From IMG/VR virus record IMGVR_UViG_3300008448_007068, positions 1-38,304 of that record: a DNA stretch of 38,304 bases; one strand, written 5' to 3'. Positions 5,944-38,304 of the stretch are shown here, piece by piece. Under the pieces are notes generated by a model. That model saw only the letters and a list, made by a program, of their open reading frames with translations, was not told the DNA's origin and made no database searches. Position 1 is the stretch's first letter, and every line of letters starts with the position of its first letter. Made by a program: the position numbers and the translations under genes. Origin of the DNA: a virus.

Positions 5944-5951
5944 TATAAATA
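5944..5951 (+). promoter_or_regulatory. Late promoter before the major capsid gene
   Basis: Exact TATAAATA, the T4 late promoter read by gp55-RNA polymerase with clamp gp45. It lies 21 bases before ATG 5973, leaving room for an AGGAG ribosome site. A late promoter before gene 23 is expected from T4. Confidence 0.85.
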
Positions 5952-5972
5952 AAAAAGTATAGGAGAAAATAA

Positions 5973-7412
5973 ATGGACTTTAATAGCGTTACACCTTATG
6001 ACACAATTTTAGAGAGATGGAATGCTGTGATTGATCACCCAGATCTTCCAGCAATCGATGACGTTTATCGTAAGAAGACTACCGCAGTTCTTCTTGAAAA
6101 TCAAAGAAAAGCTCTTCGTGAGCAAGCTGGCTTCCTTTCAGAAGCCCCAACAAATTCAATGAATGCTGGTGGTTTTGCTAGCACCTCTGTTGCTGGTACT
6201 AACTCAGCACTTCAAGGCTACGATCCAATTCTAATCAGCCTTGTTCGTAGAGCAATGCCAAATGTTGTTGCATACGATGTTGCTGGCGTTCAGCCAATGA
6301 CCGCACCAACTGGTCTTATCTTTGCTATGAGAGCAAGATATGATAGCCAAACAGGCCCAGAAGCCATGTATGATGAACCAATTGCTTCATTCTCTGGTGT
6401 TTCTGGTGGTACAGGAACATATCCTGGTACTACTAATGGATATACTGGTGGTTATACTTATTCAAATCCATTTGGCTCTATTGGTGGTACTGGATGGGCA
6501 AGTGGACCTCTTGCAAATAGAACAGGTCAATTTAATTTCTTCCGTGGATTCCTAACAGGACAAGCAGAAAATCTTTCAGCTTCGTCATCACAAGCAAATA
6601 CAGATGGTGTTGCAACTGGATTCCGTGAAATGGCATTCAGCATTGAGCGCGTAGCTGTCGAAGCTCGTACTCGCGCACTCAAGGCAGAATACACAACTGA
6701 ACTCGCACAAGATCTTAAGGCTGTCCACGGTCTTGATGCTGAATCAGAACTTGCAAATATTCTCTCAGTTGAAATTCTCAATGAAATTAACAGAGAAATT
6801 ATTCGTGCAGTTTATGCATCAGCTAAAGCTGGTTCAAATCAATCAGATCTTAACAAGTCTGGAGATTATAGCTTACTTACAGACTCTGATGGTCGTTGGT
6901 CAGCAGAACGCTACCGTGGCCTCATGTATCAAATCGAACGTGAAGCTAACGTAATCGCTAAAGAAACTCGTAGAGGTAAAGGCAACTTCATTCTTTGCAG
7001 CGCAGATGTTGCTTCTGCTCTCGCAATGGGTGGATTCCTCAATCTCTCACCAGCACTCAATGTTCAAATGAATGTTGATGATACTGGTAACGTCTTCGCT
7101 GGTGTTCTCAATGGTAAATATAAGGTTTATATTGACCCATTTGTTCCAGCTGGCGTAGATTTCTTCTGCGTTGGTTATAAGGGTGCTTCACCCTACGATG
7201 CTGGTATCTTCTACTGCCCATATGTTCCTCTACAAATGGTAAGAGCAGTTGGTGAAAATACCTTCCAACCAAAGATCGGCTTCAAGACTCGCTACGGTAT
7301 GGTTGCAAATCCATTCGCTGGTGGTCGTACAGCTAATGTTGGTCTTGGTGATGGTGCTAATACTTACTACCGTCTAACTCGCGTCGTTGATCTTCATGGT
7401 AATCAAGCCTAA
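5973..7412 (+). CDS. 23: Major capsid protein (gp23)
   Basis: 479-aa precursor of the T4 gp23 HK97-fold capsid protein. Residues 1-57 form a charged helical propeptide ending Gly-Phe-Leu-Ser-Glu, followed by Ala-Pro-Thr-Asn. This fits the T4 protease rule hydrophobic-x-Glu, so maturation probably occurs after Glu57. The mature part starts with a Gly/Ala/Ser-rich stretch, then Pro-Ile-Leu-Ile-Ser-Leu-Val-Arg-Arg-Ala-Met-Pro. Its end carries a conserved Lys-Thr-Arg-Tyr-Gly-Met-Val-Ala-Asn-Pro block. Codons are visibly more GC-rich than in flanking genes, as expected for a highly expressed gene. It has its own late promoter and a terminator after it. Confidence 0.96.
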   Translation: MDFNSVTPYDTILERWNAVIDHPDLPAIDDVYRKKTTAVLLENQRKALREQAGFLSEAPTNSMNAGGFASTSVAGTNSALQGYDPILISLVRRAMPNVVAYDVAGVQPMTAPTGLIFAMRARYDSQTGPEAMYDEPIASFSGVSGGTGTYPGTTNGYTGGYTYSNPFGSIGGTGWASGPLANRTGQFNFFRGFLTGQAENLSASSSQANTDGVATGFREMAFSIERVAVEARTRALKAEYTTELAQDLKAVHGLDAESELANILSVEILNEINREIIRAVYASAKAGSNQSDLNKSGDYSLLTDSDGRWSAERYRGLMYQIEREANVIAKETRRGKGNFILCSADVASALAMGGFLNLSPALNVQMNVDDTGNVFAGVLNGKYKVYIDPFVPAGVDFFCVGYKGASPYDAGIFYCPYVPLQMVRAVGENTFQPKIGFKTRYGMVANPFAGGRTANVGLGDGANTYYRLTRVVDLHGNQA

Positions 7413-7440
7413 TAGATAGGTTTGGTATAAAAAAATAAAG

Positions 7441-7474
7441 CAAAGGGTTGGGTAAAACCAACCCTTTGTTATTT
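7441..7474 (+). terminator. Strong terminator after gp23
   Basis: A perfect 11-bp stem (7441-7451 with 7458-7468), GC-rich in the middle, with a 6-base loop and TTATTTT after it. An A-rich run precedes it. It closes the capsid transcript and abuts a late promoter. Confidence 0.9.
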
Positions 7475-7482
7475 TATAAATA
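7475..7482 (+). promoter_or_regulatory. Late promoter with almost no leader before the gp3-like gene
   Basis: Exact TATAAATA directly after the T-rich end of the terminator. Only five bases (TTGTT) separate it from ATG 7488. Taking the T4 position of the element (about -13 to -6), transcription would start at or beside the A of the ATG. Confidence 0.8.
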
Positions 7483-7487
7483 TTGTT

Positions 7488-8042
7488 ATGGGATTTAATA
7501 ATATACCAGATTCTGTTAAGCAATATTTACCTGGAGATTTTTTGGCTACAAATCCAAATATTCCAGTAAATACTAATTTTTTAACAAATAATAAATTTAT
7601 TTTTATGTTGGACAGATGTCCAACAATTGCATATTTTTGCCAAAGAGCAAATGTGCCATCTGTATCGTTAGGGGTATCAATTCAGAATACGCCAACAGCA
7701 ATACAAATTCAACGACCAGGTACAACTGTTACTCTTGAAGAGTTTCAAATTGGTTTTGCGATAGATGAAGATCTTCTTAACTGGCGTGAAATTCATAACT
7801 GGATAAAATCAATAACTTATTATGGAAATAATTGTCAGATATTAAAAGAAGAACAACAAACAGCAAATGCATCTTTATTAATTCTTAATAGTTCCTATAG
7901 ACCATTTCTTAAAGTTAGATTTTATGATATTTTTCCAACTTTCTTAAGTGGTATTGATTTTGATTCGACTTTACCAGATACAGATAATATAATTGCATCT
8001 GTTAATTTCGCATATTCTTATTTTGACATCGAATCTATTTAA
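7488..8042 (+). CDS. Probable tail completion / tail-tube terminator protein (gp3-like)
   Basis: 184-aa protein without a motif I can name with certainty. In marine T4-like phages the gene between 23 and uvsY is gene 3, whose product caps the tail tube and stabilises the sheath (T4 gp3: 176 aa), and the length fits. Seen in the sequence: a Phe-Ile-Phe-Met-Leu-Asp-Arg-Cys-Pro strand, Pro-Ser-Val-Ser-Leu-Gly, and an Asp-Glu-Asp-Leu-Leu-Asn-Trp-Arg-Glu-Ile block near residue 96. This layout recalls tail-tube-like folds, so a tube-like virion protein is the safe reading. There is no Shine-Dalgarno and no later in-frame Met before residue 40, so a leaderless start is likely. Confidence 0.65.
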   Translation: MGFNNIPDSVKQYLPGDFLATNPNIPVNTNFLTNNKFIFMLDRCPTIAYFCQRANVPSVSLGVSIQNTPTAIQIQRPGTTVTLEEFQIGFAIDEDLLNWREIHNWIKSITYYGNNCQILKEEQQTANASLLILNSSYRPFLKVRFYDIFPTFLSGIDFDSTLPDTDNIIASVNFAYSYFDIESI

Positions 8043-8495: not shown

Positions 8496-9952
8496 TAGAA
8501 ATAGAAAAAGTAGATGAAAGTTTTATAAAAATTAAATGCGAAGAAGATATCGCAAGAGAACTTTCATCTTTTTTCACATTTAAGGTTCCAAATCATGAAT
8601 ACACACCAGCCTATAGAAAAAAGAAATGGGATGGTAAGATTCGTTTATTTAATCTCGCATCAAAAACAATATATGCTGGTTTGTTAGATTATATAATAAA
8701 ATTTTTTAACGAAAGAAATTATTCATATAAATTAAATTTTAATACAGATTCTATCGATAATAATTCTTTTGAAGAATGGTTTACAAAACAAAAAATATAT
8801 TCTAATAAAAAAGAATTAAAACCGCATGATTATCAATTAGATGCTGTTAAGCAAGCATTAAATAAACAAAGAATATTATTACTTTCACCAACAGGTAGTG
8901 GTAAATCGTTAATAATTTATTTAATTCTACGATATCTTTTAGAAAAAGATCAGAAAAAATACCTAATAGTTGTTCCTACTACTGGTCTTGTGAATCAATT
9001 ATACAATGACTTTGCTGATTATTCAAATAGAGATGTTCAATTTTTACAAAAAATTCATACTATATTTGCTGGTAGAGAAAAAATAACAAATAAAAAAATA
9101 GTAATATCAACATGGCAAAGTATATTTAAAGAACCAGAATCATTTTTCAATGAATTTGATGGTATCTTTGGGGATGAATGCCATTTATTTAAAGCAAAAT
9201 CATTATCATTACTTGTTCGTAAAATGAAACAAACCAAGTATCGCATAGGAACAACAGGCACTTTAGATAATACAGAAGCACACAAACTTATCATAGAAGG
9301 ACTGTTTGGTAGATCTTATGCGGTAACAACAACTAGAGAATTAATTGACGATAATATTTTATCTAAATTAAATATCAATAATATATTATTATCTTATGAT
9401 GAATTCCCCAAAAAACCTTTATATGCACAAGAAATAGAATGGTTAATTTCAAACGATCTTCGAAATAATTTCATTGCTGATCTTGCATGTAAATTAAAGG
9501 GTAATGTTCTTGTACTCTACAATTTCGTTGAAAAGCACGGATTACCTTTATTTAATAAAATAAAGCAACGAAATAAAAAAGATGTTTTCCAAATTCATGG
9601 AAAAACAGATGTTGAAGAAAGAGAATTAATTCGCAATATAGTAAATAATCACACAAATAGTGTTCTTGTGGCATCTTATGGAACTTGCAGTACTGGAATT
9701 AATATCAAGAATATAAATGCTATTATCTTCGCCTCACCGTCCAAATCCGTTATTCGTGTTCTTCAATCAATAGGTAGAGGTCTAAGAAAGTCAGAAACAA
9801 AAGATAATGTAGTAGTATATGATATAAGTGATGATTTACATTTCAAATCATATAGGAACCATACCTTAAGACATATGGATGAGCGTTTGACCATATATAA
9901 TAATGAGAAGTTCACATACAAAACAGTAAAAGTGAAGTTAGGAGCCAAATGA
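8492..9952 (+). CDS. uvsW: Recombination DNA/RNA helicase UvsW
   Basis: 486-aa superfamily 2 helicase. T4 UvsW unwinds branched DNA and R-loops, shutting off origin replication. Motifs seen: a DNA-binding N-terminal block (Lys-Lys-Trp-Asp-Gly-Lys near 44-49), Pro-His-Asp-Tyr-Gln at 111-115, Walker A Pro-Thr-Gly-Ser-Gly-Lys-Ser at 133-139, a DECH box at 228-231, Gly-Thr-Thr-Gly-Thr motif III, and Ser-Ile-Gly-Arg-Gly-Leu-Arg motif VI. I start it at ATG 8492 rather than an upstream GTG (8465), because that ATG overlaps the uvsY stop and has AAGGA before it. T4 UvsW is about 100 aa longer. It overlaps the next gene by ATGA. Confidence 0.94.
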   Translation: MIEIEKVDESFIKIKCEEDIARELSSFFTFKVPNHEYTPAYRKKKWDGKIRLFNLASKTIYAGLLDYIIKFFNERNYSYKLNFNTDSIDNNSFEEWFTKQKIYSNKKELKPHDYQLDAVKQALNKQRILLLSPTGSGKSLIIYLILRYLLEKDQKKYLIVVPTTGLVNQLYNDFADYSNRDVQFLQKIHTIFAGREKITNKKIVISTWQSIFKEPESFFNEFDGIFGDECHLFKAKSLSLLVRKMKQTKYRIGTTGTLDNTEAHKLIIEGLFGRSYAVTTTRELIDDNILSKLNINNILLSYDEFPKKPLYAQEIEWLISNDLRNNFIADLACKLKGNVLVLYNFVEKHGLPLFNKIKQRNKKDVFQIHGKTDVEERELIRNIVNNHTNSVLVASYGTCSTGINIKNINAIIFASPSKSVIRVLQSIGRGLRKSETKDNVVVYDISDDLHFKSYRNHTLRHMDERLTIYNNEKFTYKTVKVKLGAK

Positions 9953-10671
9953 ATAAAAATACAAAAATCTTCAAACTAGTTAGTGGTGAAGAAATAATTG
10001 GCAATCTTTTAAATAATGATAATGATTCTGTTCTTAAGATTGAAAATCCAATGGTTTTCAAAACAACGACCATGCTTGATACTCGCGGAGTCCCGCATGA
10101 TGTGACAATATTAAAGGATTGGATGTTAAGATCAAATGAAAAAATTGCGGACTTGGCAAAAGAACAAGTATCTATTTCATTTAATCCAAACGAAAAAACT
10201 TTAGAACTTTATAATATTGAAATGTCAAAAAATAATATTTCTCCACAGGAAATATTAGATGCTGGTTCTGTAAAAGATAATTTTATGAATCCACTTGATG
10301 AAATCATGGATTCATATATGAGTAATTTAATTGATCTTGCAAAACAAGAACAACCAAGACGAAGAAAAGCAAAAAAGAAAAGAAGACAGCCAGAACCAGA
10401 ACAAGATGAATTAAGTCTTGAATCTTTAATTCCAAATGAATTGAAGGAAAGACCAATGATTTATCTTTCTATGGTTATTCCACCAGAATGTATTATGAAT
10501 TTAATGACTGCTGGTATTCTTGATCCAGAACAATTACTTGAAATGATCAATGAAGTAAAGAAAAAAAATAACTTTACTGGTGATGAGAAGAAGCGTGAAG
10601 ACTTTGGTAATAAGTTATCTGACTGGAACCCAGATCCAAAATCAACTGATTATGGTGATCCAGAATCTTGA
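9949..10671 (+). CDS. Conserved Sm-like-domain protein between uvsW and gene 55
   Basis: 240-aa protein of unknown function. The N-terminus (Thr-Lys-Ile-Phe-Lys-Leu-Val-Ser-Gly-Glu-Glu-Ile-Ile-Gly, then short beta-strand-like segments to about residue 85) has the look of the phage Sm-like domain, a small beta-barrel that may bind RNA. The middle holds a basic Arg/Lys cluster (about 137-146). The C-terminal half is acidic and helical, with Pro-Asn-Glu-Leu-Lys-Glu-Arg-Pro-Met-Ile-Tyr-Leu and a polar tail. A protein of this type sits at the same place in marine T4-like phages. The ATGA overlap with uvsW indicates co-translation. The Sm-like call is pattern recognition, not proof. Confidence 0.75.
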   Translation: MNKNTKIFKLVSGEEIIGNLLNNDNDSVLKIENPMVFKTTTMLDTRGVPHDVTILKDWMLRSNEKIADLAKEQVSISFNPNEKTLELYNIEMSKNNISPQEILDAGSVKDNFMNPLDEIMDSYMSNLIDLAKQEQPRRRKAKKKRRQPEPEQDELSLESLIPNELKERPMIYLSMVIPPECIMNLMTAGILDPEQLLEMINEVKKKNNFTGDEKKREDFGNKLSDWNPDPKSTDYGDPES

Positions 10672-10766: not shown

Positions 10767-10794
10767 TTGAAATTTTGTAGAAATCTGTTATAAT
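10767..10794 (+). promoter_or_regulatory. Host-type sigma70 promoter before gene 55
   Basis: TTGAAA at 10767-10772, a 16-base spacer, and a perfect TATAAT at 10789-10794 with the extended TG (TGT before the -10 box). It is the only near-consensus sigma70 promoter I noticed. It would drive gene 55 and the replication and recombination genes behind it early, using host polymerase. The -10 box overlaps an in-frame ATG at 10793, which therefore cannot be the start codon on this transcript. Confidence 0.8.
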
Positions 10795-10810
10795 GAAAGA
10801 GGAGTATAAA

Positions 10811-11374
10811 ATGGCAAAAGATATAATAGAAAAAGAATTAAAATCATTAAGACATTATGTTGATAACGAAAAATTTCTTAAATCCATGAATGAATGGAAA
10901 AAAGAAGTTAAAAAGGCCGAAAAGAAAGGTCAAAAGCGACCCCCGGTAACGAATTATATAGCAGAATGCTTTATAATGATCGCTGAACACCTTTCTCAAC
11001 GGCCTAATTTTATTAATTATCCATTCCGAGAAGATATGGTTGGTGATGGTATCGAAAATTGTATTGCTTATGCTCATAATTTCGATTCTGAAAAATCATC
11101 AAATCCATTCTCGTATTTTACACAGATAATTTACTATGCTTTTTTACGCAGAATAGAACGAGAAAAGAAGCAATCTTATATAAAATATAAATGCATACAG
11201 ATGAATGATGTGGATGGTAAATTTGTAGACTGGCTTAAAAATAATCAGGGATCATCGACTTTTTCAGAATTTCTCCAAAGTACATTTTTCTTATCTGAAC
11301 ATGATATAGAAAAAATGGAGACAAAAGAAAAAGCTAAAAAGAAGCGTGGAAAGAAACCAAAAAAGAAATCATGA
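10811..11374 (+). CDS. 55: Late-gene sigma factor (gp55)
   Basis: 187-aa homologue of T4 gp55, the sigma factor that lets host RNA polymerase read TATAAATA promoters. Conserved blocks seen: Asn-Tyr-Ile-Ala-Glu-Cys-Phe-Ile-Met-Ile-Ala-Glu-His-Leu-Ser, the Met-Val-Gly-Asp-Gly-Ile-Glu block, Ala-His-Asn-Phe-Asp, and Pro-Phe-Ser-Tyr-Phe-Thr-Gln-Ile. The longest frame starts at 10793 inside the -10 box of its promoter. I choose ATG 10811, which follows a GAGGAG ribosome site. T4 gp55 ends in a hydrophobic clamp-binding segment. Here the end is instead very lysine-rich (about 12 Lys/Arg in the last 16 residues). The stop overlaps the gene 47 start. Confidence 0.92.
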   Translation: MAKDIIEKELKSLRHYVDNEKFLKSMNEWKKEVKKAEKKGQKRPPVTNYIAECFIMIAEHLSQRPNFINYPFREDMVGDGIENCIAYAHNFDSEKSSNPFSYFTQIIYYAFLRRIEREKKQSYIKYKCIQMNDVDGKFVDWLKNNQGSSTFSEFLQSTFFLSEHDIEKMETKEKAKKKRGKKPKKKS

Positions 11375-12547: not shown

Positions 12548-14237
12548 GAATTTCGGATCGTTTGGGAATACATGGTCAGAAATTGAGTTAAATAAAAATT
12601 CAACCACTCTGGTCTGTGGTACAAATGGAAGTGGTAAATCTTTCGCGTTGCTTGATACAATTACATTTGCATTATTCGGTAAACCATTTAGAAAGATAAA
12701 TCTAACTCAAGTAAGTAATTCTATAAACAAGAAAAATTGTTTGGTTGAACTTGAGTTTTCTATAGACAAAGATGATTATAAAATTGTTCGTGGTTTATCA
12801 CCCAAGATTTTTGAAATTCATAGAAATGGAAAATTGATAAATCAAGATTCCAAAAATATTGATTATCAGGGTGTATTAGAAGAACAAATTCTTAAAATGA
12901 ATTATAAGACATTTACCCAAGTAGTAATTCTTGGTAGTTCTGCATTTGTTCCATTCATGCAATTAACTGCTTCTGATCGTAGAGCCGTTATTGAAAATAT
13001 TCTTGATATTAATATTTTTACAACTATGAATGTTATTCTTAAAACAAAGGTAACAATCGCAAAAGAAAATATTACAGATATTGTAAATAAAATAGAATTA
13101 CAAAAACAAAAAGTCGAATATCAACAAAAAATTGTGGATAATTTAACTTTACGTTTGAATAATGATATTAAAAAAATTCAAGAAGAAATAGATCAACATT
13201 CAATAGAAGAAAATAATTATCTAGAAGAAATACAAAAATTACAACAAGAAAAAAATCTTGTAGATTTAAATGATAAGATTGATGATATTCTAAAGATATT
13301 TAAAAAGAATGAGACAACAATATCACAATATACATTCAAAATTTCAGATCTTGAAAAAGAAGTAAAGTTCTATGAAAAGACAGAAAACTGTCCTAAATGC
13401 AAAACACATTTGACAGATGGTTTAAAGAAAGAAAATATAGAGTCACTGACACAAAATATTACTTCTTTAGAGAAAGAAATAAATTCATTAGTAGAGACAA
13501 ATGATTCTAATGAAAAAATTATTTCTATAGAACAGAAGAATAAACTAAAAATAGTTAAAATAGATTCTGATATTAAAGATTTGAATTCATCTATACGAGA
13601 AATAAAATCATTAATTGCCTACAAAACAAAACAATTAGCAGAATCAAATAAGATAGAAATGGATTTAGTTAGAGAAAAGACTGTTTTGAGGATGGAAAAA
13701 TCTGAACTTATTAAATTAATGAAGGAATCAGAAGTTCTTAAAGAAGATCTAACTTATCTTAAACTAGCTGGGGATATTCTTAAGGATAATGGTGTTAAGA
13801 TTAAAATAATTAAACACTATTTACCATCTATGAATAAATACATCAATAAGTATTTACGAGCCATGGATTTCTTTGTTCAGTTTAATATAGACGAAGAATT
13901 CAACGAAGTAATCAAGAGCCGTCATCGGGATGAATTCAGTTATATGAATTTCAGTGAAGGTGAAAAGATGCGTATTGATCTCGCATTGCTTTTGGCATGG
14001 AGAGAAATTGCTAAAATGAAAAATAGCGTTAATTGCAATTTATTGATTCTTGATGAAATTTTTGATTCATCTTTAGATTCAGTTGGTACTGACGAAGTAC
14101 TAAGATTGCTTAATGCTTTGGGGACTAAAACAAATGTTTTTGTTATTAGCCATAAAGCAGATCAAATCGTAGATAAATTCACAAACACAATAACATTTGA
14201 AAAGAAGAATAACTTCAGTAAAATGACCATATCATAA
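12519..14237 (+). CDS. 46: Recombination endonuclease subunit, Rad50-like (gp46)
   Basis: 572-aa SMC/Rad50-type ATPase (T4 gp46: 560 aa), partner of gp47. Seen in order: Walker A Gly-Thr-Asn-Gly-Ser-Gly-Lys-Ser at 34-41, Phe-Gly-Lys-Pro-Phe-Arg, two long Lys/Glu/Ile coiled-coil arms, a zinc hook Cys-Pro-Lys-Cys near residue 290, an ABC signature Phe-Ser-Glu-Gly-Glu-Lys, and Walker B Leu-Leu-Ile-Leu-Asp-Glu-Ile-Phe-Asp with the D-loop Ser-Leu-Asp. A His in Val-Ile-Ser-His-Lys follows. All ATPase parts are intact. The stop codon overlaps the late promoter of the next gene. Confidence 0.95.
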   Translation: MIIFKKIKFKNFGSFGNTWSEIELNKNSTTLVCGTNGSGKSFALLDTITFALFGKPFRKINLTQVSNSINKKNCLVELEFSIDKDDYKIVRGLSPKIFEIHRNGKLINQDSKNIDYQGVLEEQILKMNYKTFTQVVILGSSAFVPFMQLTASDRRAVIENILDINIFTTMNVILKTKVTIAKENITDIVNKIELQKQKVEYQQKIVDNLTLRLNNDIKKIQEEIDQHSIEENNYLEEIQKLQQEKNLVDLNDKIDDILKIFKKNETTISQYTFKISDLEKEVKFYEKTENCPKCKTHLTDGLKKENIESLTQNITSLEKEINSLVETNDSNEKIISIEQKNKLKIVKIDSDIKDLNSSIREIKSLIAYKTKQLAESNKIEMDLVREKTVLRMEKSELIKLMKESEVLKEDLTYLKLAGDILKDNGVKIKIIKHYLPSMNKYINKYLRAMDFFVQFNIDEEFNEVIKSRHRDEFSYMNFSEGEKMRIDLALLLAWREIAKMKNSVNCNLLILDEIFDSSLDSVGTDEVLRLLNALGTKTNVFVISHKADQIVDKFTNTITFEKKNNFSKMTIS

Positions 14238-14240
14238 ATA
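14233..14240 (+). promoter_or_regulatory. Late promoter (CATAAATA) with almost no leader
   Basis: CATAAATA overlaps the gp46 stop codon and is separated from ATG 14246 by five bases (TTCTT), the same spacing as at 7475. It would give a leaderless transcript of the following structural-type genes and then gp45. Confidence 0.65.
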
Positions 14241-14245
14241 TTCTT

Positions 14246-14563
14246 ATGAGTAATCCAGAACAACTTAATTATAGAGGAAATTTTAAAGAATATGATTCCC
14301 GTGGATATGAAGTAACATATAATGTTGGTGATGTTGTACTTTATGATGGAAAACAATACGTAGCCATTGAAAGAAACAAAAAATCATTACCAATAAAGAA
14401 AAATTCTGGATGGAAAGAATTATCTGGTGATATAGAAGATTATCATTATTCGGATAGTATTCCACTAAACGCAAATGTCGGTGATAGATGGGTTGACAGG
14501 TTAACTGGTAAGATGTATACTTACATAGAAGATAAAAATGGTTTTCATTGGGTAGAATTTTAA
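14246..14563 (+). CDS. Small probable virion protein with carbohydrate-binding-like repeat
   Basis: 105-aa protein. Residues about 24-60 have the pattern Tyr-x-Val-Gly-Asp-Val-Val-x-Tyr-x-Gly-Lys-Gln-Tyr-Val-Ala followed by a Gly-Trp, like the small chitin-binding (CBM5/12) fold. The second half has Gly-Asp-Arg-Trp-Val-Asp-x-Leu-Thr-Gly-x-Met-Tyr and ends His-Trp-Val-Glu-Phe, a module frequent in marine phage fibre and neck proteins. I infer a surface or tail-associated structural role; binding of sugar is a guess. There is no ribosome site and the late promoter ends five bases before the ATG. The stop overlaps the next ATG (TAATG). Confidence 0.7.
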   Translation: MSNPEQLNYRGNFKEYDSRGYEVTYNVGDVVLYDGKQYVAIERNKKSLPIKKNSGWKELSGDIEDYHYSDSIPLNANVGDRWVDRLTGKMYTYIEDKNGFHWVEF

Positions 14564-21161: not shown

Positions 21162-21838
21162 ATAATAAAATAGAATTAAAAAATGTAACTATATTATGTG
21201 TGGATGGAGTAAATCCAGATATAGGATTAAAAGCTTTAAAATATAGCATGAAGCATATAATTTTTGGTAAAAGTATATTATTATCTCATATAAATCCAGG
21301 AAATATTTCCGATAACATTATATTTGAACAAATACCAAAATTAACACATGACACTTATAGTCAATTTATGTTACATGAACTTTATAAGTACGTTGATACA
21401 GATTACTGCCTGACTATTCATGATGATGGGTTTGTTATAAATCCACATCTATGGAATGATGAATTTCTACAATACGATTATATCGGAGCACCATGGTATC
21501 ATACTGTTCCATATTACGGTCAAAAATATAGAGTAGGAAATGGTGGATTTAGTTTTAGAAGTAAAAAACTAGTCAATCTTTGTAGAAATATTAAAACTAA
21601 TAGCCATGAAGACGCAAGCATTTCCATACGAAATAGAGATTTATTAGAACATTATGGTTGTAAATTTCCTTCAGTAGAAGTAGCTATGAGATTTTCTTTA
21701 GAAGAAGAAATACCAGAATGTCCTTTTGATTTAAATACTTGTTTTGGTTTTCACGGAAAAGGAACTTCTACTTTAAGATCAAATGAGCACAATCAACAAC
21801 TATTAGATAGAATAAAATTATTAGACACCGTAGACTGA
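21158..21838 (+). CDS. DUF5672-type putative glycosyltransferase
   Basis: 226-aa protein. I recognise the DUF5672 pattern: Tyr-Ser-Gln-Phe-Met-Leu-His-Glu-Leu-Tyr-Lys-Tyr-Val, Asp-Tyr-Cys-Leu-Thr-Ile-His-Asp-Asp-Gly-Phe, Phe-Leu-Gln-Tyr-Asp-Tyr-Ile-Gly-Ala-Pro-Trp and Val-Gly-Asn-Gly-Gly-Phe-Ser-Phe-Arg-Ser. Members are found next to sugar-transfer genes and are thought to be glycosyltransferases, but the reaction is not known to me. Most members I recall have Gln rather than Asp before Asp-Gly-Phe. The start overlaps the previous stop. Confidence 0.75.
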   Translation: MNNKIELKNVTILCVDGVNPDIGLKALKYSMKHIIFGKSILLSHINPGNISDNIIFEQIPKLTHDTYSQFMLHELYKYVDTDYCLTIHDDGFVINPHLWNDEFLQYDYIGAPWYHTVPYYGQKYRVGNGGFSFRSKKLVNLCRNIKTNSHEDASISIRNRDLLEHYGCKFPSVEVAMRFSLEEEIPECPFDLNTCFGFHGKGTSTLRSNEHNQQLLDRIKLLDTVD

Positions 21839-24542: not shown

Positions 24543-25613
24543 ATGAATAAAATATTTGAAAATTTATTTGTCTTAGAATTGGCAAATAATCATTGGGGAT
24601 CTTTAAAAAGAGGAAAACAAATCGTAAAACAATTTGCAAAAGTTGTTAAAAATAATAAAATTAAAGCTGCAATAAAGCTTCAATTTAGAGATGTTGAAAA
24701 TTTTATACATAAAGATTTTAAAAATGATGGAAATGGAATAGAATTAACAAAACTTCCAAAAAGAAGTAGATATATCCAAAAAACATCAAAAACAAAATTA
24801 ACATATGATGAAATGCATGAGTTGATACAATATATCAAAAAACATGATTGTATTCCAATGGCAACACCATTCGATGAAGCATCTGTTGATTATTGTACTA
24901 AAATGAATATACAGATTATTAAAATTGCAAGTTCAGATATTAATGATTGGATACTTTTAAATAAAATTGCAAGTACAAATAAACCTGTTATTATTTCAAC
25001 TGGTGGGGCAAATGATAAGCAAATAGAAGATGTTGTTAGATTTTTTACTAATAGATCAATACCAATTGCAATAAACCACTGCGTATCAAAATACCCAACA
25101 GAGGATGAAGAATTAGAATTAAATCAAATTGATTATTTGAAAAATAAATTTCCAAATAATATTATAGGATTATCTACACACGAATATCATGATTGGACAT
25201 CCTCAATGTACATATCCTACGCTAAAGGAGTTAGGACATGGGAAAGACACATTGATATACCTTATCCAAATGGCCATGAACAAAAAGAAGTTTCATTATA
25301 CTGCTCTTTACCAGAACAAATAGATGAATGGTTTAAAGCATATAATAAAGCAGTTGCCATGTGTGGAACTTCTTCAGAATCTAGAAGAATTATTGATGAT
25401 AAAGAAATAAATTACTTAGAATCTCTTTATCGTGGATTATATTTAAATAAAAATATTAAAAAGGGTGAGAAAATAACTATTAATGATTTATATAGTGCAA
25501 TTCCATACCAAAAAGAATTAGGGCATATTACTTCTAGAGATTTTATTGAAGATGGAGCGGTTGCTCTTCGTAATCTAACAAAAAATTCACCATTACTTAA
25601 AGAAGATATTTAA
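24543..25613 (+). CDS. NeuB/SpsE-type sialic (nonulosonic) acid synthase
   Basis: 356-aa NeuB-family enzyme, which joins phosphoenolpyruvate to a 6-carbon amino sugar to give a nine-carbon acid. Blocks seen: Glu-Leu-Ala-Asn-Asn-His-Trp-Gly at the start, a Lys-Leu-Gln-Phe-Arg block, Ala-Thr-Pro-Phe-Asp-Glu, Lys-Ile-Ala-Ser-Ser-Asp, Ile-Ser-Thr-Gly-Gly-Ala, Asn-His-Cys-Val-Ser-Lys-Tyr-Pro, and His-Glu-Tyr-His-Asp. The last 60 residues look like the C-terminal SAF (antifreeze-like) domain. I start it at ATG 24543, five bases after the previous stop, rather than at an upstream in-frame start at 24504 that would overlap it. No NeuA or NeuC is in view. Confidence 0.85.
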   Translation: MNKIFENLFVLELANNHWGSLKRGKQIVKQFAKVVKNNKIKAAIKLQFRDVENFIHKDFKNDGNGIELTKLPKRSRYIQKTSKTKLTYDEMHELIQYIKKHDCIPMATPFDEASVDYCTKMNIQIIKIASSDINDWILLNKIASTNKPVIISTGGANDKQIEDVVRFFTNRSIPIAINHCVSKYPTEDEELELNQIDYLKNKFPNNIIGLSTHEYHDWTSSMYISYAKGVRTWERHIDIPYPNGHEQKEVSLYCSLPEQIDEWFKAYNKAVAMCGTSSESRRIIDDKEINYLESLYRGLYLNKNIKKGEKITINDLYSAIPYQKELGHITSRDFIEDGAVALRNLTKNSPLLKEDI

Positions 25614-34115: not shown

Positions 34116-37100
34116 ATGGCTAACACACCACCACCACCCGGCAATCCAGGTTTACCGAAAGAAAGTTTAGTAGTATCAGGAAGAAATAACAGATATACAG
34201 GAACAACCTTTTTTGGGGGGGACTCTGTTTTACCGCCTGTATTGTATAATACAGCAACAACTCCAGTTACTTACAATGGTTTTCAGTGGTCATTTAATAC
34301 AAATGTGAATTGGGGTAGATTTATTAGTGGAGAACCATTTATTCTTGTTCCTCCTGCTGGTATTATTGTTGCTGGCGTTTCTTATGATGGACACAATTTA
34401 CCTAGATTGGTTACTGGTTATACTGGAGCTAGTGCTCAAGCCCTTGGTATTGGTGTTACAATGTATGTAAGTGGTTCAATGAAAAACCCAGGACCATTTT
34501 GGGAACAACGTGATTTTAATTTTACTAAGAAGGTTTTAGGATCACAAATATTTCCGTGGAATTATGATGAAAGAACAACACAGGGTGTTGTGGGTAGAAA
34601 AGGCGATGATCTTGTAAAGGGAAAACTAGTAAGTTTTGATAATTCTTTTGATAATTTTCTATTTTTTCCTATCGGTTTATCTGCTGGTGATAATTTAGTA
34701 ACAGCAAAAAGTAGTTTCAACGGTAATCATGAATACTACTTCAAACCACAGGGAACGAATAAATTCGTTCGATGGACAAATCCAGAAATGTCCAGAATGT
34801 TTATAGAAAAATATGGTATTTTAACAGCCATTGCTGAAAGTAATGTACCAACTTACGCAGATTGTTATAGACCACCCGTATTCTGGAATGGTGCTTCTCT
34901 TTCAAATAGACCAATATTTTACCGGCATGATATGGTAAAAAATACAGAGAATTATTTGATACAAAAACCAGAAAAGGATGTACGTGGAGATTTAATTAAT
35001 TATAATGCAGAAAATATATTAAATGAAACTACCAATTGGAATAATTTTGTTAATAATATGTGGATTTCAACACATATTCCATATTATAGTGGAGTAGCAC
35101 ACCAATTAGCGATTTCTGGTTATGATTTATATAATGATGACCCGAATACTGAGATGGGTGGCTATATGGGTGGTGGAGCAAAAGTAAAGGATCAGATGAT
35201 CCAATCTGTGTTTGCTCCGTGGGTTACTAAAATTAATCGTAAAAAAGCATTAGATAAAGTAACTCAATTTTGTATAGATTGTTGGGGCATTCCTAATGCT
35301 GGTGGTATTGCTAATGGTGATGGTGGTTATCATGCTGCTGTTGCCCACCCATGGATTGTATTCTTGGGATGGTTGTATAATCGACCAGATATGACAAAAT
35401 ATTATCTTGGTAAACAAATTCAAGATAGATTGGCTCCTGGTTATATCGGTGGATTTACACTCACAAATCCCCCAGTTCCACTTGAATATATGTACAAGAT
35501 GTTCCTTACACAAGATTATAGACAACGATTTAAAGTCTATGGTTCCGGTATAACACAATCAAATGGATTTACCGGATGGGTTGGAACTAATCCAAATATT
35601 TCACTATATCATGGTTTAACCATGCCTTCGAAAGCCACTGGATCAACTGGATTTGGTTGGATATATAAATTAACAGGTATTAGTCTTGCTTATTCATATA
35701 CAGCATCTACTATAGAATTTAAATCACAAAAAATAAATGGAGCATTTGGTACTATAGTTTGCCATAGAGATACTGTATTTAGATTAAATGGTCTTGGACC
35801 AGGATCAGATAAACCAGGACCAGCTACATTACCTTTAGTTGTTACTTCTACCGGAACATTAGCTAAAAAAGGATTTGATACTAATAGTGATGTTGGTGGA
35901 TTCTGGTCATTTGACGATGGCTCAATGCTGGGAATGAATGTAGAAATAGTATCCGGTCCTGGTGCTGGCGCAACAGCATATAGAATAATAAAAGGATATA
36001 ACCACTTTATTGGAAGAGGTAAAATAGAAGATGAAACCGAAGAAGAAGGTTTATCTGGAAATAATTTAGGAATCATTAAATCATTACAATATCCAACCTT
36101 TATTTTGGATCGTGATTTTGATGCAGGAGCACCAACATCAGAGTCTGTAATAAAAATATATCCCAGTAAGAGTAATGAAGTTGTGTGGGGATTTAGTGCT
36201 GGTGGTTGGGCAGCAGATTTAAATGAAAAAGGTATAACCCAGTTTGGTCCAGTTCAGCAAACTATATACCAACAACCTTCTTATAATAATATTGCTGATG
36301 AAGCTATAGTAAAGCATTATTCAATACATAATCATCTTGGAATTACTGAAGATCAATTCTTGATTGATTATGTAAAAGGTGTTTATTTTGATGAGAATCT
36401 GAATACCGCAACAAGAAGACAAAAGTATTATGGTTCTGCATATGTAGGATCTATTTTCTCTGGTGGTAACTTATTGGGTGGTGCGCTAGTTGGTATGATG
36501 CTTGGGATTACTGGACAACAATATGCTCCGAAATTTGTTAATGATCTTGGTGGTATGTTCGACAATGATCCAGAAGTTCCGCTTGATGGAATATCTTTAG
36601 AATTCGCCCCAGAAGGTATAACATATACTGTTCAGGGTGGTTCTGGTGTAGTTCATACTGGTTATGGGAAAATATTTGATGAACCGCAAACAATCTTAAG
36701 AATAACAGCAATCATAGGAAATAAAATATTCACAGAAGTAAATCAGCCAGGTTTATATACTCTTTTACGTGATCTAAAGATACAATACGGACCATTTTTA
36801 ACGAACAATATTGTTGTTGACGACAGAGAAGATGAAGAAGCGTTTAAAGATAAAGTATCTTATCACGATTTTGGTGAGTCAAGAGCATCAACAGGCATTG
36901 AAGATATTACACGATATGATGATTTTATGAGAAAACTTCCCGATCTTCAAGCTATAGCTGAATACAACGAAAATGCTGAAATACCAAAAACAGTAAAATT
37001 AAATTTTGTAACAGACAGATATACGATGGGTGGCGCGGTTACTATAGTACCAAGACCAGGTGAAAGTAGAAAAGTAACATCTTCTAATTTAATTGGAAAT

Positions 37101-37961
37101 ATAATCAGAGGAACCAATGATCAGATAAATACACTTTCATTTACAGTTGATCTTGATGGTTCTCACATACCGATAGTATCAGACAGTATTCATTATTGTA
37201 TTGCTTCCCCGCGGATTGGTAGCGGGACATTTGATATGCCAGAAGAATATATTTATGACAATTGGAAGAAAGTGACTAATGTGGCATATAATGGTAATAT
37301 GATAATATTGAATGACTTAGAATTACCATCTGGAACAGCTTTAGGAAATTATGGTGTTAATACAAATGATAAGTTAATATTTATAAGATATTTAAATGAT
37401 ACTAGTGTATATGAACACCCATTTACAGCAATTCCTGTACCTCAAATAGCCTCAACAGATTCAAATGTATTAAGAGATATAAGACAAAGTAATTATCCAA
37501 CATTTAATCAAACTGATCTTTTCACAAAGCATAAGATCGACCAGATTAAAATACAAAATTCTAGTGGAAATGCCGGAGTATTTTCTATTAATTACATATC
37601 ATCTTCAACAAGTGGTATTTCTGCTGACTATAGATCAGCTGCATATAATCACTTTAGAATATTGCATAATAATTATTATGAAAATGAGAATAGTTATGGT
37701 TTCCCAATATTCAGTACATTTATAGAGGATATTAATGGATTGGTTGATTACACATATTATGGGGGTAAATATAATTATGTGTTCTTTGCTAATCTAAATG
37801 GTGTAGAATATTATAAACCAAAACATACTGGTTTTAGTATTACGGAACGAGACATAAATCCTCCTACTGGGATAGGATATTATGATCTAGTAATACATGG
37901 ACAAACCATGAATGTTTATATGCCACAAATTCCACAAAATCTATATTATATTACAGAGTAA
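34116..37961 (+). CDS. Large (1281-aa) probable virion/tail protein with a helical enzyme-like middle
   Basis: The largest gene of the window. The N-terminus is Pro/Gly-rich (Pro-Pro-Pro-Pro-Gly-Asn-Pro-Gly) followed by beta-rich sequence. Residues about 300-490 change character to long amphipathic helices with Trp/His/Tyr clusters, including Gly-Asp-Gly-Gly-Tyr-His-Ala-Ala-Val-Ala-His-Pro-Trp near 400 and a Gly-Tyr-Met-Gly-Gly-Gly stretch. The rest is beta-rich with many Gly, Asn and Tyr. No signal peptide or coiled coil is obvious. I do not recognise the family. Late promoter, neighbours and composition indicate a structural or tail-tip protein; an alpha/alpha-barrel polysaccharide-degrading domain is a speculation. 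GAGGA precedes ATG 34116. Confidence 0.7.
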   Translation: MANTPPPPGNPGLPKESLVVSGRNNRYTGTTFFGGDSVLPPVLYNTATTPVTYNGFQWSFNTNVNWGRFISGEPFILVPPAGIIVAGVSYDGHNLPRLVTGYTGASAQALGIGVTMYVSGSMKNPGPFWEQRDFNFTKKVLGSQIFPWNYDERTTQGVVGRKGDDLVKGKLVSFDNSFDNFLFFPIGLSAGDNLVTAKSSFNGNHEYYFKPQGTNKFVRWTNPEMSRMFIEKYGILTAIAESNVPTYADCYRPPVFWNGASLSNRPIFYRHDMVKNTENYLIQKPEKDVRGDLINYNAENILNETTNWNNFVNNMWISTHIPYYSGVAHQLAISGYDLYNDDPNTEMGGYMGGGAKVKDQMIQSVFAPWVTKINRKKALDKVTQFCIDCWGIPNAGGIANGDGGYHAAVAHPWIVFLGWLYNRPDMTKYYLGKQIQDRLAPGYIGGFTLTNPPVPLEYMYKMFLTQDYRQRFKVYGSGITQSNGFTGWVGTNPNISLYHGLTMPSKATGSTGFGWIYKLTGISLAYSYTASTIEFKSQKINGAFGTIVCHRDTVFRLNGLGPGSDKPGPATLPLVVTSTGTLAKKGFDTNSDVGGFWSFDDGSMLGMNVEIVSGPGAGATAYRIIKGYNHFIGRGKIEDETEEEGLSGNNLGIIKSLQYPTFILDRDFDAGAPTSESVIKIYPSKSNEVVWGFSAGGWAADLNEKGITQFGPVQQTIYQQPSYNNIADEAIVKHYSIHNHLGITEDQFLIDYVKGVYFDENLNTATRRQKYYGSAYVGSIFSGGNLLGGALVGMMLGITGQQYAPKFVNDLGGMFDNDPEVPLDGISLEFAPEGITYTVQGGSGVVHTGYGKIFDEPQTILRITAIIGNKIFTEVNQPGLYTLLRDLKIQYGPFLTNNIVVDDREDEEAFKDKVSYHDFGESRASTGIEDITRYDDFMRKLPDLQAIAEYNENAEIPKTVKLNFVTDRYTMGGAVTIVPRPGESRKVTSSNLIGNIIRGTNDQINTLSFTVDLDGSHIPIVSDSIHYCIASPRIGSGTFDMPEEYIYDNWKKVTNVAYNGNMIILNDLELPSGTALGNYGVNTNDKLIFIRYLNDTSVYEHPFTAIPVPQIASTDSNVLRDIRQSNYPTFNQTDLFTKHKIDQIKIQNSSGNAGVFSINYISSSTSGISADYRSAAYNHFRILHNNYYENENSYGFPIFSTFIEDINGLVDYTYYGGKYNYVFFANLNGVEYYKPKHTGFSITERDINPPTGIGYYDLVIHGQTMNVYMPQIPQNLYYITE

Positions 37962-37962
37962 A

Positions 37963-37970
37963 TATAAATA
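37963..37970 (+). promoter_or_regulatory. Late promoter motif just upstream of a terminator
   Basis: Exact TATAAATA two bases after the stop of the 1281-aa gene. The next element is the terminator at 37990-38016, so a transcript from here would be only about 40 bases long. Confidence 0.45.
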
Positions 37971-37989
37971 TATAAAATACCTTAAAAGG

Positions 37990-38016
37990 AAAACAGGGGA
38001 TTTCTCCCCTGTTTTT
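37990..38016 (+). terminator. Strong terminator after the 1281-aa gene
   Basis: Perfect 11-bp stem (37990-38000 with 38005-38015) containing AGGGGA/TCCCCT, a four-base loop and a T-rich 3' side. The A-rich left arm would also serve as a T-run on the other strand. Confidence 0.9.
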
Positions 38017-38020
38017 CATT

Positions 38021-38028
38021 TATAAATA
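38021..38028 (+). promoter_or_regulatory. Late promoter with almost no leader before the last gene
   Basis: Exact TATAAATA four bases after the terminator; six bases (TTGATA) lie between it and ATG 38035. The predicted leader is zero to two bases. Confidence 0.8.
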
Positions 38029-38034
38029 TTGATA

Positions 38035-38304
38035 ATGCCATTTAATTTTCCATCAGATCCAGCAAACGGTGCTACATTCTCCTTTGGGAGCTTGTCGTGG
38101 CAATATAATGGTTATGCTTGGGAAAGATACGATACAACACCAAATGAAGTTTATTCTATAAATGGTATTACAGGTGCTATAGGACTATCCGCTGGTACTG
38201 ATGTTGAAATTTCAATTACTGGAAAAACATTTACCATAGCATCACCTACTGTATATGGTGTTTCTGGTGCAATTTATGCGTCAAATTTAGCAACAGGATT
38301 GCTT
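38035..38304 (+). CDS. 5' part of a fibre-like structural protein
   Basis: Ninety codons, open to the right edge. The start, Pro-Phe-Asn-Phe-Pro, then Phe-Ser-Phe-Gly-Ser-Leu-Ser-Trp-Gln-Tyr-Asn-Gly-Tyr-Ala-Trp, has the short aromatic module seen at the N-termini of marine phage tail or neck fibre proteins. It is followed by Asn-Gly-Ile-Thr-Gly-Ala-Ile-Gly-Leu-Ser-Ala-Gly-Thr, a repeat typical of fibre shafts. No ribosome site precedes the ATG and no other early Met is in frame, so a leaderless start is likely. The full length is unknown. Confidence 0.75.
   Translation, partial: MPFNFPSDPANGATFSFGSLSWQYNGYAWERYDTTPNEVYSINGITGAIGLSAGTDVEISITGKTFTIASPTVYGVSGAIYASNLATGLL

Follow-up and report, generated by a model that had tools for sequence, protein, structure and literature searches.

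Predicted leaderless late mRNAs from T4-type promoters placed five bases before the start codon in marine and freshwater T4-like phages

In a 38,304-base virus record from IMG/VR (the window, by which we mean the whole of that stretch of DNA), a T4-type late promoter, the predicted transcription start and the AUG of a gp3-like gene appear to be fused at position 7488, and we consider it quite probable, from the comparative sequence analysis that follows, that this gene is expressed late from a leaderless mRNA. T4 late promoters carry the motif TATAAATA at -13 to -6 (PMC1524935); because of this geometry the predicted +1 of the window promoter coincides with base 7488, the A of the ATG. A first-pass annotation of the DNA had noticed the motif, which is indeed present five bases before the ATG, had applied the same T4 rule to it, and had proposed a leaderless gp3 transcript, a proposal consistent with every computational test available to us. 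What that annotation did not see is that the arrangement recurs across many late genes and is not a peculiarity of one: on the best reading of the sequences compared here, leaderless late genes would constitute a recurrent set in T4-like phages (mostly Kyanoviridae) of marine and freshwater origin.

The window displays the usual gene order of T4-like phages (tail sheath, tail tube, portal, protease, scaffold and gp23), continuing after gp23 with the gp3-like gene, UvsY, UvsW, gp55 and recombination genes (Table 1). The gp3-like gene, assigned to the gp3/tail-tube family, lies between gp23 and uvsY in the order gp23-gp3-uvsY-uvsW, and its product is at most 38% identical by tblastn to annotated gp3 or tail completion proteins of cyanophages. 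Its upstream neighbour, gp23, has a conventional leadered late start, with AGGAGA at 5961-5966 within the leader, and thus provides a leadered contrast to the gp3-like gene. Elsewhere in the window, TATAAATT at 1932-1940 stands immediately before the portal gene ATG, at distance 0, and a 1281-aa ORF without a PHROG match (34116-37961) follows closely after a series of small ORFs that have Shine-Dalgarno-like sites.

Table 1. Features of the window relevant to late promoters and the starts of adjoining genes.
Feature	Position	Strand	Remarks
gp23 late promoter TATAAATA	5944..5951	+	21 nt before gp23 ATG
gp23 major capsid gene	5973..7412	+	phrog_138 2e-139; Pfam Gp23 1.9e-133
Terminator-like hairpin	7439..7470	+	13 pairs; between gp23 and promoter; tail ATTTTAT
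T4-type late promoter TATAAATA	7475..7482	+	sequence match; conserved in relatives
5-nt spacer TTGTT	7483..7487	+	length fixed, sequence variable among relatives
gp3-like start codon ATG	7488..7490	+	predicted transcription start = 7488
gp3-like tail completion protein gene (184 aa)	7488..8042	+	phrog_45 1.7e-29
gp55-like late sigma factor gene (193 aa)	10793..11374	+	phrog_234 6.8e-60
Promoter CATAAATA of second leaderless candidate	14233..14240	+	
105-aa ORF, second leaderless candidate	14246..14563	+	5 nt from CATAAATA to ATG
TATAAATA after hairpin	38021..38028	+	6 nt before ATG 38035

Loci of gp3 were retrieved from IMG/VR by protein similarity, and 86 were classified. The motif occurs 4-6 nt before the gp3 ATG in 25 of these, at a distance of exactly 5 in 22 and exactly 4 in three. 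Of the remaining loci, five lie at distances in between; in 17 the leader measures 15-60 nt, and many of these have GGAG-type sites; the other 39 lack the motif within 60 nt; because so many relatives have such a leader or lack the motif over this interval, leaderless gp3 is not universal. Across the leaderless loci (about two dozen), in which protein identity falls from 98% to about 30%, the succession of NATAAATA, five (rarely four) bases and ATG is kept. The spacer sequences themselves vary (TTGTT, CTTCT, CTGAT, ATAGT, TTATT and others), as do the hairpin stems and the lengths of the T-tracts, and the length from motif to ATG is constant. A different disposition was observed in Melnitz-3 (L027, ~21337-21370) and in loci L021-L023: upstream of gp3, the ATG placed five bases after TATAAATA begins a mini-ORF (ATG AAA AGG ..., 8-9 codons), within which lies the Shine-Dalgarno sequence of the real gp3 start just downstream, and the gp3 leader itself starts with AUG.

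The spacing was surveyed more broadly in 20 T4-like records plus the gp3 loci, comprising the whole or large parts of T4, HTVC008M, P-SSM4, Melnitz-3, P-SSM2, S-PM2 and P-HM2, part of phiM12, and IMG/VR contigs. For each NATAAATA the distance was counted to the first following ATG that starts an ORF of 60 aa or more, and the survey, with the gp3 loci included, yielded 450 promoter-gene pairs representing 194 protein families; a motif-selected scan, biased by construction, was kept out of the statistics. Two distance classes are evident: a spike of 27 families at exactly 5, beside which distance 4 has four families, 6 has six, 7 has eight and 8 to 12 have one each, and a broad hump that extends from about 15 to 40. 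With 2.8 families per position as background (the mean of distances 0-3 and 7-14), the 27 families at distance 5 correspond to a Poisson P of about 1e-17, an approximate value in that the background derives from neighbouring positions. Control motifs of similar composition showed no spike at this distance (0-2 each), and ATAAATAT, an overlapping motif shifted by one base relative to the promoter, peaked at distance 4, as expected. None of the 28 promoter-gene pairs of T4 itself stands at distance 5, and none falls below 14; the single T4 occurrence of TATAAATA five bases before an ATG (131165-131180, minus strand) lies between gene 31 and rIII, where no start is annotated, and was discarded as a candidate.

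Further attributes separate the two classes. Start codons at distance 5 comprise 31 ATG, one GTG and no TTG, and Shine-Dalgarno-like cores precede 5% of genes at distances 4-6 versus 61% of those at 15-50. At the position predicted as +1, the leadered promoters of phages other than T4 have A in 57%, a purine in 77% and C in 2% of cases, and the corresponding values for the leadered promoters of T4 are 57%, 75% and 4%; this purine signature supports the same predicted start geometry.

The published annotations of two cultured phages of Pelagibacter (strain HTCC1062), an abundant ocean bacterium, provided a check that used annotated CDS starts only, and was therefore independent of the ORF rule of the survey. 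HTVC008M has nine annotated starts at exactly 5 and three elsewhere in the interval 0-14; the respective counts in Mosig are seven and two; and no annotated start in either phage is at distance 4 or 6. The predicted 5' ends, on the A of the AUG, would fall in HTVC008M at 6280, 7562, 16007 (minus strand), 18916 (minus strand), 19456, 31132, 49760, 75559 and 142360, and in Mosig at 24964 for gp3 and 106670 for gp2 (both minus strand). The HTVC008M genes at distance 5 encode a 2OG-Fe(II) oxygenase, CsgF, a baseplate tail tube cap, two baseplate wedge proteins, a regulator, a putative tape measure protein, gp2 and an 85-aa product (the last encoded right after the major capsid gene), and those of Mosig include gp2 and a gp3-like gene adjoining the major capsid gene. 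Both phages, which are rich in predicted leaderless starts, also encode a homologue of ribosomal protein bS21 (HTVC008M, 91228-91431; Mosig, 9932-10141, minus strand). Since tblastn with the HTVC008M protein found no match in the window or in the IMG/VR records examined, a phage bS21 is not required as a general partner of such starts.

These distributions bear on the possibility that transcription begins 1-3 nt away from base 7488, leaving a leader of 1-3 nt on an mRNA whose translation would still be independent of a Shine-Dalgarno sequence. T4-like late starts may wobble, and homologues occur at neighbouring spacings: gp3 at 4, and gp25, which in the relatives of HTVC008M is found at distances 5, 6 and 8 and is devoid of a Shine-Dalgarno leader. 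Judging by the two longer gp25 spacings, a leader of 0-3 nt may be tolerated. As an account of the gp3-like gene we nevertheless judge this unlikely: the spike is one base wide, the two isolates lack annotated starts on either side of it, and the predicted +1 at 7488 matches the purine signature of the leadered promoters.

Placement of a hairpin between gp23 and the promoter relates to a second possibility, in which a gp23 read-through RNA or a processed transcript is the main template for gp3 translation and the nearby late promoter is minor. The first-pass annotation had described a strong terminator that blocks read-through. The structure is strong by calculation (MFE -21.8 kcal/mol, z -5.6; none of 200 shuffles as stable), and 23 of the 24 gp3 loci in the leaderless group have an equivalent upstream hairpin (MFE of -8 kcal/mol or lower). 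A full block is less certain, because the T-run of the tail (ATTTTAT) is broken and passes directly into the promoter; complete termination is thus not guaranteed, and read-through mRNAs may also arise. Polycistronic mRNA, moreover, serves many phage genes that lack Shine-Dalgarno sequences. Yet on a read-through RNA the hairpin would stand only 17 nt upstream of an ATG that has no Shine-Dalgarno sequence, and a dependence on read-through gives no reason for the promoter-to-ATG distance to stay fixed as hairpin and T-tract change, so that a primary role for such transcripts seems very improbable.

The predicted leaderless mRNA also depends on correct identification of the start codon. The first-pass annotation was right that no Shine-Dalgarno sequence precedes ATG 7488 and that the next in-frame Met is residue 40; it overlooked an in-frame TTG at codon 19 (7542), with GGAGA immediately upstream. 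Initiation at this TTG instead of the ATG has next to no likelihood, and was rejected, as the relatives do not keep the codon (TTA in L002-L007, CTC in L008). Members of the clade differ within codons 1-17 of the gp3 gene at 4, 1 and 19 first, second and third positions, respectively, and the N-terminus Met-Gly-Phe persists down to 49% identity; in the window, a product begun at ATG 7488 would start MGFNNIPDSVK. We take ATG 7488 to be the real start because codons 1-17, by this strong third-position bias, are under purifying selection. The nine annotated CDS starts of HTVC008M and the seven of Mosig at distance 5 likewise agree with the AUG at this spacing as the true start.

Within the window, TATAAATA alone is not enriched (10 found, 9.4 expected), and ATAAATA-N5-ATG is found twice where 0.74 are expected, which is not significant (18 of 100 shuffles); the window match by itself is within chance, and its significance comes from comparison. 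That chance in an AT-rich genome, or simple compaction, set TATAAATA five bases before the ATG to no functional effect is scarcely credible, because the exact spacing is retained in diverged gp3 loci and the genome-wide spike at 5 is flanked by a valley on either side, is specific to ATG and is missing from control motifs and T4 genes, and because compaction alone would not empty distances 8-12. The window contains a second leaderless candidate, the 105-aa ORF at 14246, whose family has distance 5 in nine of nine distinct relatives having the motif. Near its end (37962-38035), a hairpin is again followed by TATAAATA, and an ORF from ATG 38035 extends past the window; here the predicted +1 is the A before the ATG, giving a 1-nt leader, and the distance in a relative (G001) matches the 6 nt of the window.

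With the late promoters of T4 (dependent on gp55, gp33 and gp45), the promoters considered here share the motif, the predicted geometry, the +1 purine signature, late structural genes downstream and an encoded gp55; they differ in that T4 late genes carry leaders, whereas the predicted +1 of the window promoter falls on the first base of the start codon. Late promoters of the NATAAATA type are reported for S-PM2 and Syn9 (PMC2984593, PMC3037559), and 15 late promoters are predicted in Melnitz (PMC9004378). These have the same motif, belong to the same phage group and are predicted upstream of late genes; in the passages of the three papers that were searched, neither an exact placement of +1 nor a leaderless transcript is brought up. 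Leaderless mRNAs of bacteria, exemplified by lambda cI and by mycobacteria (reviewed in PMC9031893), with 6-8% of the primary TSSs of Prochlorococcus MED4 lying within 10 nt (PMC5607370), likewise have a 5' AUG, no Shine-Dalgarno sequence and a strong AUG preference. They use host-type promoters, whereas here a phage-encoded late sigma system would generate a leaderless late set. A paper on phage AR9 remarks that phage transcripts are often leaderless, the leaders of AR9 itself being 26-491 nt (PMC5312081); the polymerases and promoters of AR9 and of other phages with reported leaderless transcripts differ from the gp55 type. Leaderless mRNA and NATAAATA late promoters are thus each already known separately. 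Our search of the open-licence literature found no report of leaderless mRNAs from gp55/T4-type late promoters.

We envisage that host RNA polymerase with phage gp55 would bind TATAAATA at 7475-7482 and initiate on base 7488, yielding a gp3 mRNA that would start 5'-AUGGGA. The hairpin would end most gp23 transcripts and so separate gp3 from gp23 transcription, and for that reason gp3 would depend mainly on the 7488 start. As leader and Shine-Dalgarno sequence are absent, the ribosome, probably as a 70S particle, would have to bind directly at the AUG on the 5' end, in the manner described for other leaderless mRNAs (PMC9031893). The recurrent class would take in gp3, gp2 and gp25, the genes for baseplate and tape measure proteins, and auxiliary genes; late genes with leaders, gp23 for example, occur beside it. 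In T4, gp3, gp2 and gp25 are low-copy virion parts. The purpose may perhaps be modest expression of such parts, or genome compaction; leaderless low-copy genes, set against a gp23 with a Shine-Dalgarno leader, would fit stoichiometry control, which is only an idea because auxiliary genes also belong to the class. A further proposition, which we offer as speculative and rather doubtful, is a leaderless late regulon of Kyanoviridae type, in which fusion of promoter and start would partly switch late synthesis to leaderless initiation, possibly with help from a ribosome changed by the phage (HTVC008M and Mosig encode bS21). Such a regulon, if real, would set the stoichiometry or timing of low-copy virion proteins.

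Late transcription in T4 is a textbook system, and its late mRNAs carry Shine-Dalgarno leaders. The promoter-start fusion described here would explain the absence of ribosome-binding sites from the late genes concerned, and would furnish an annotation rule, by which NATAAATA followed by five bases and ATG marks the true start. Cultured phages suitable for direct tests exist (HTVC008M, Mosig, Melnitz and P-SSM4). If the reading is correct, a phage-encoded sigma system yields a defined set of leaderless mRNAs in many ocean and freshwater relatives of T4, within bacteria whose translation initiation has been little studied.
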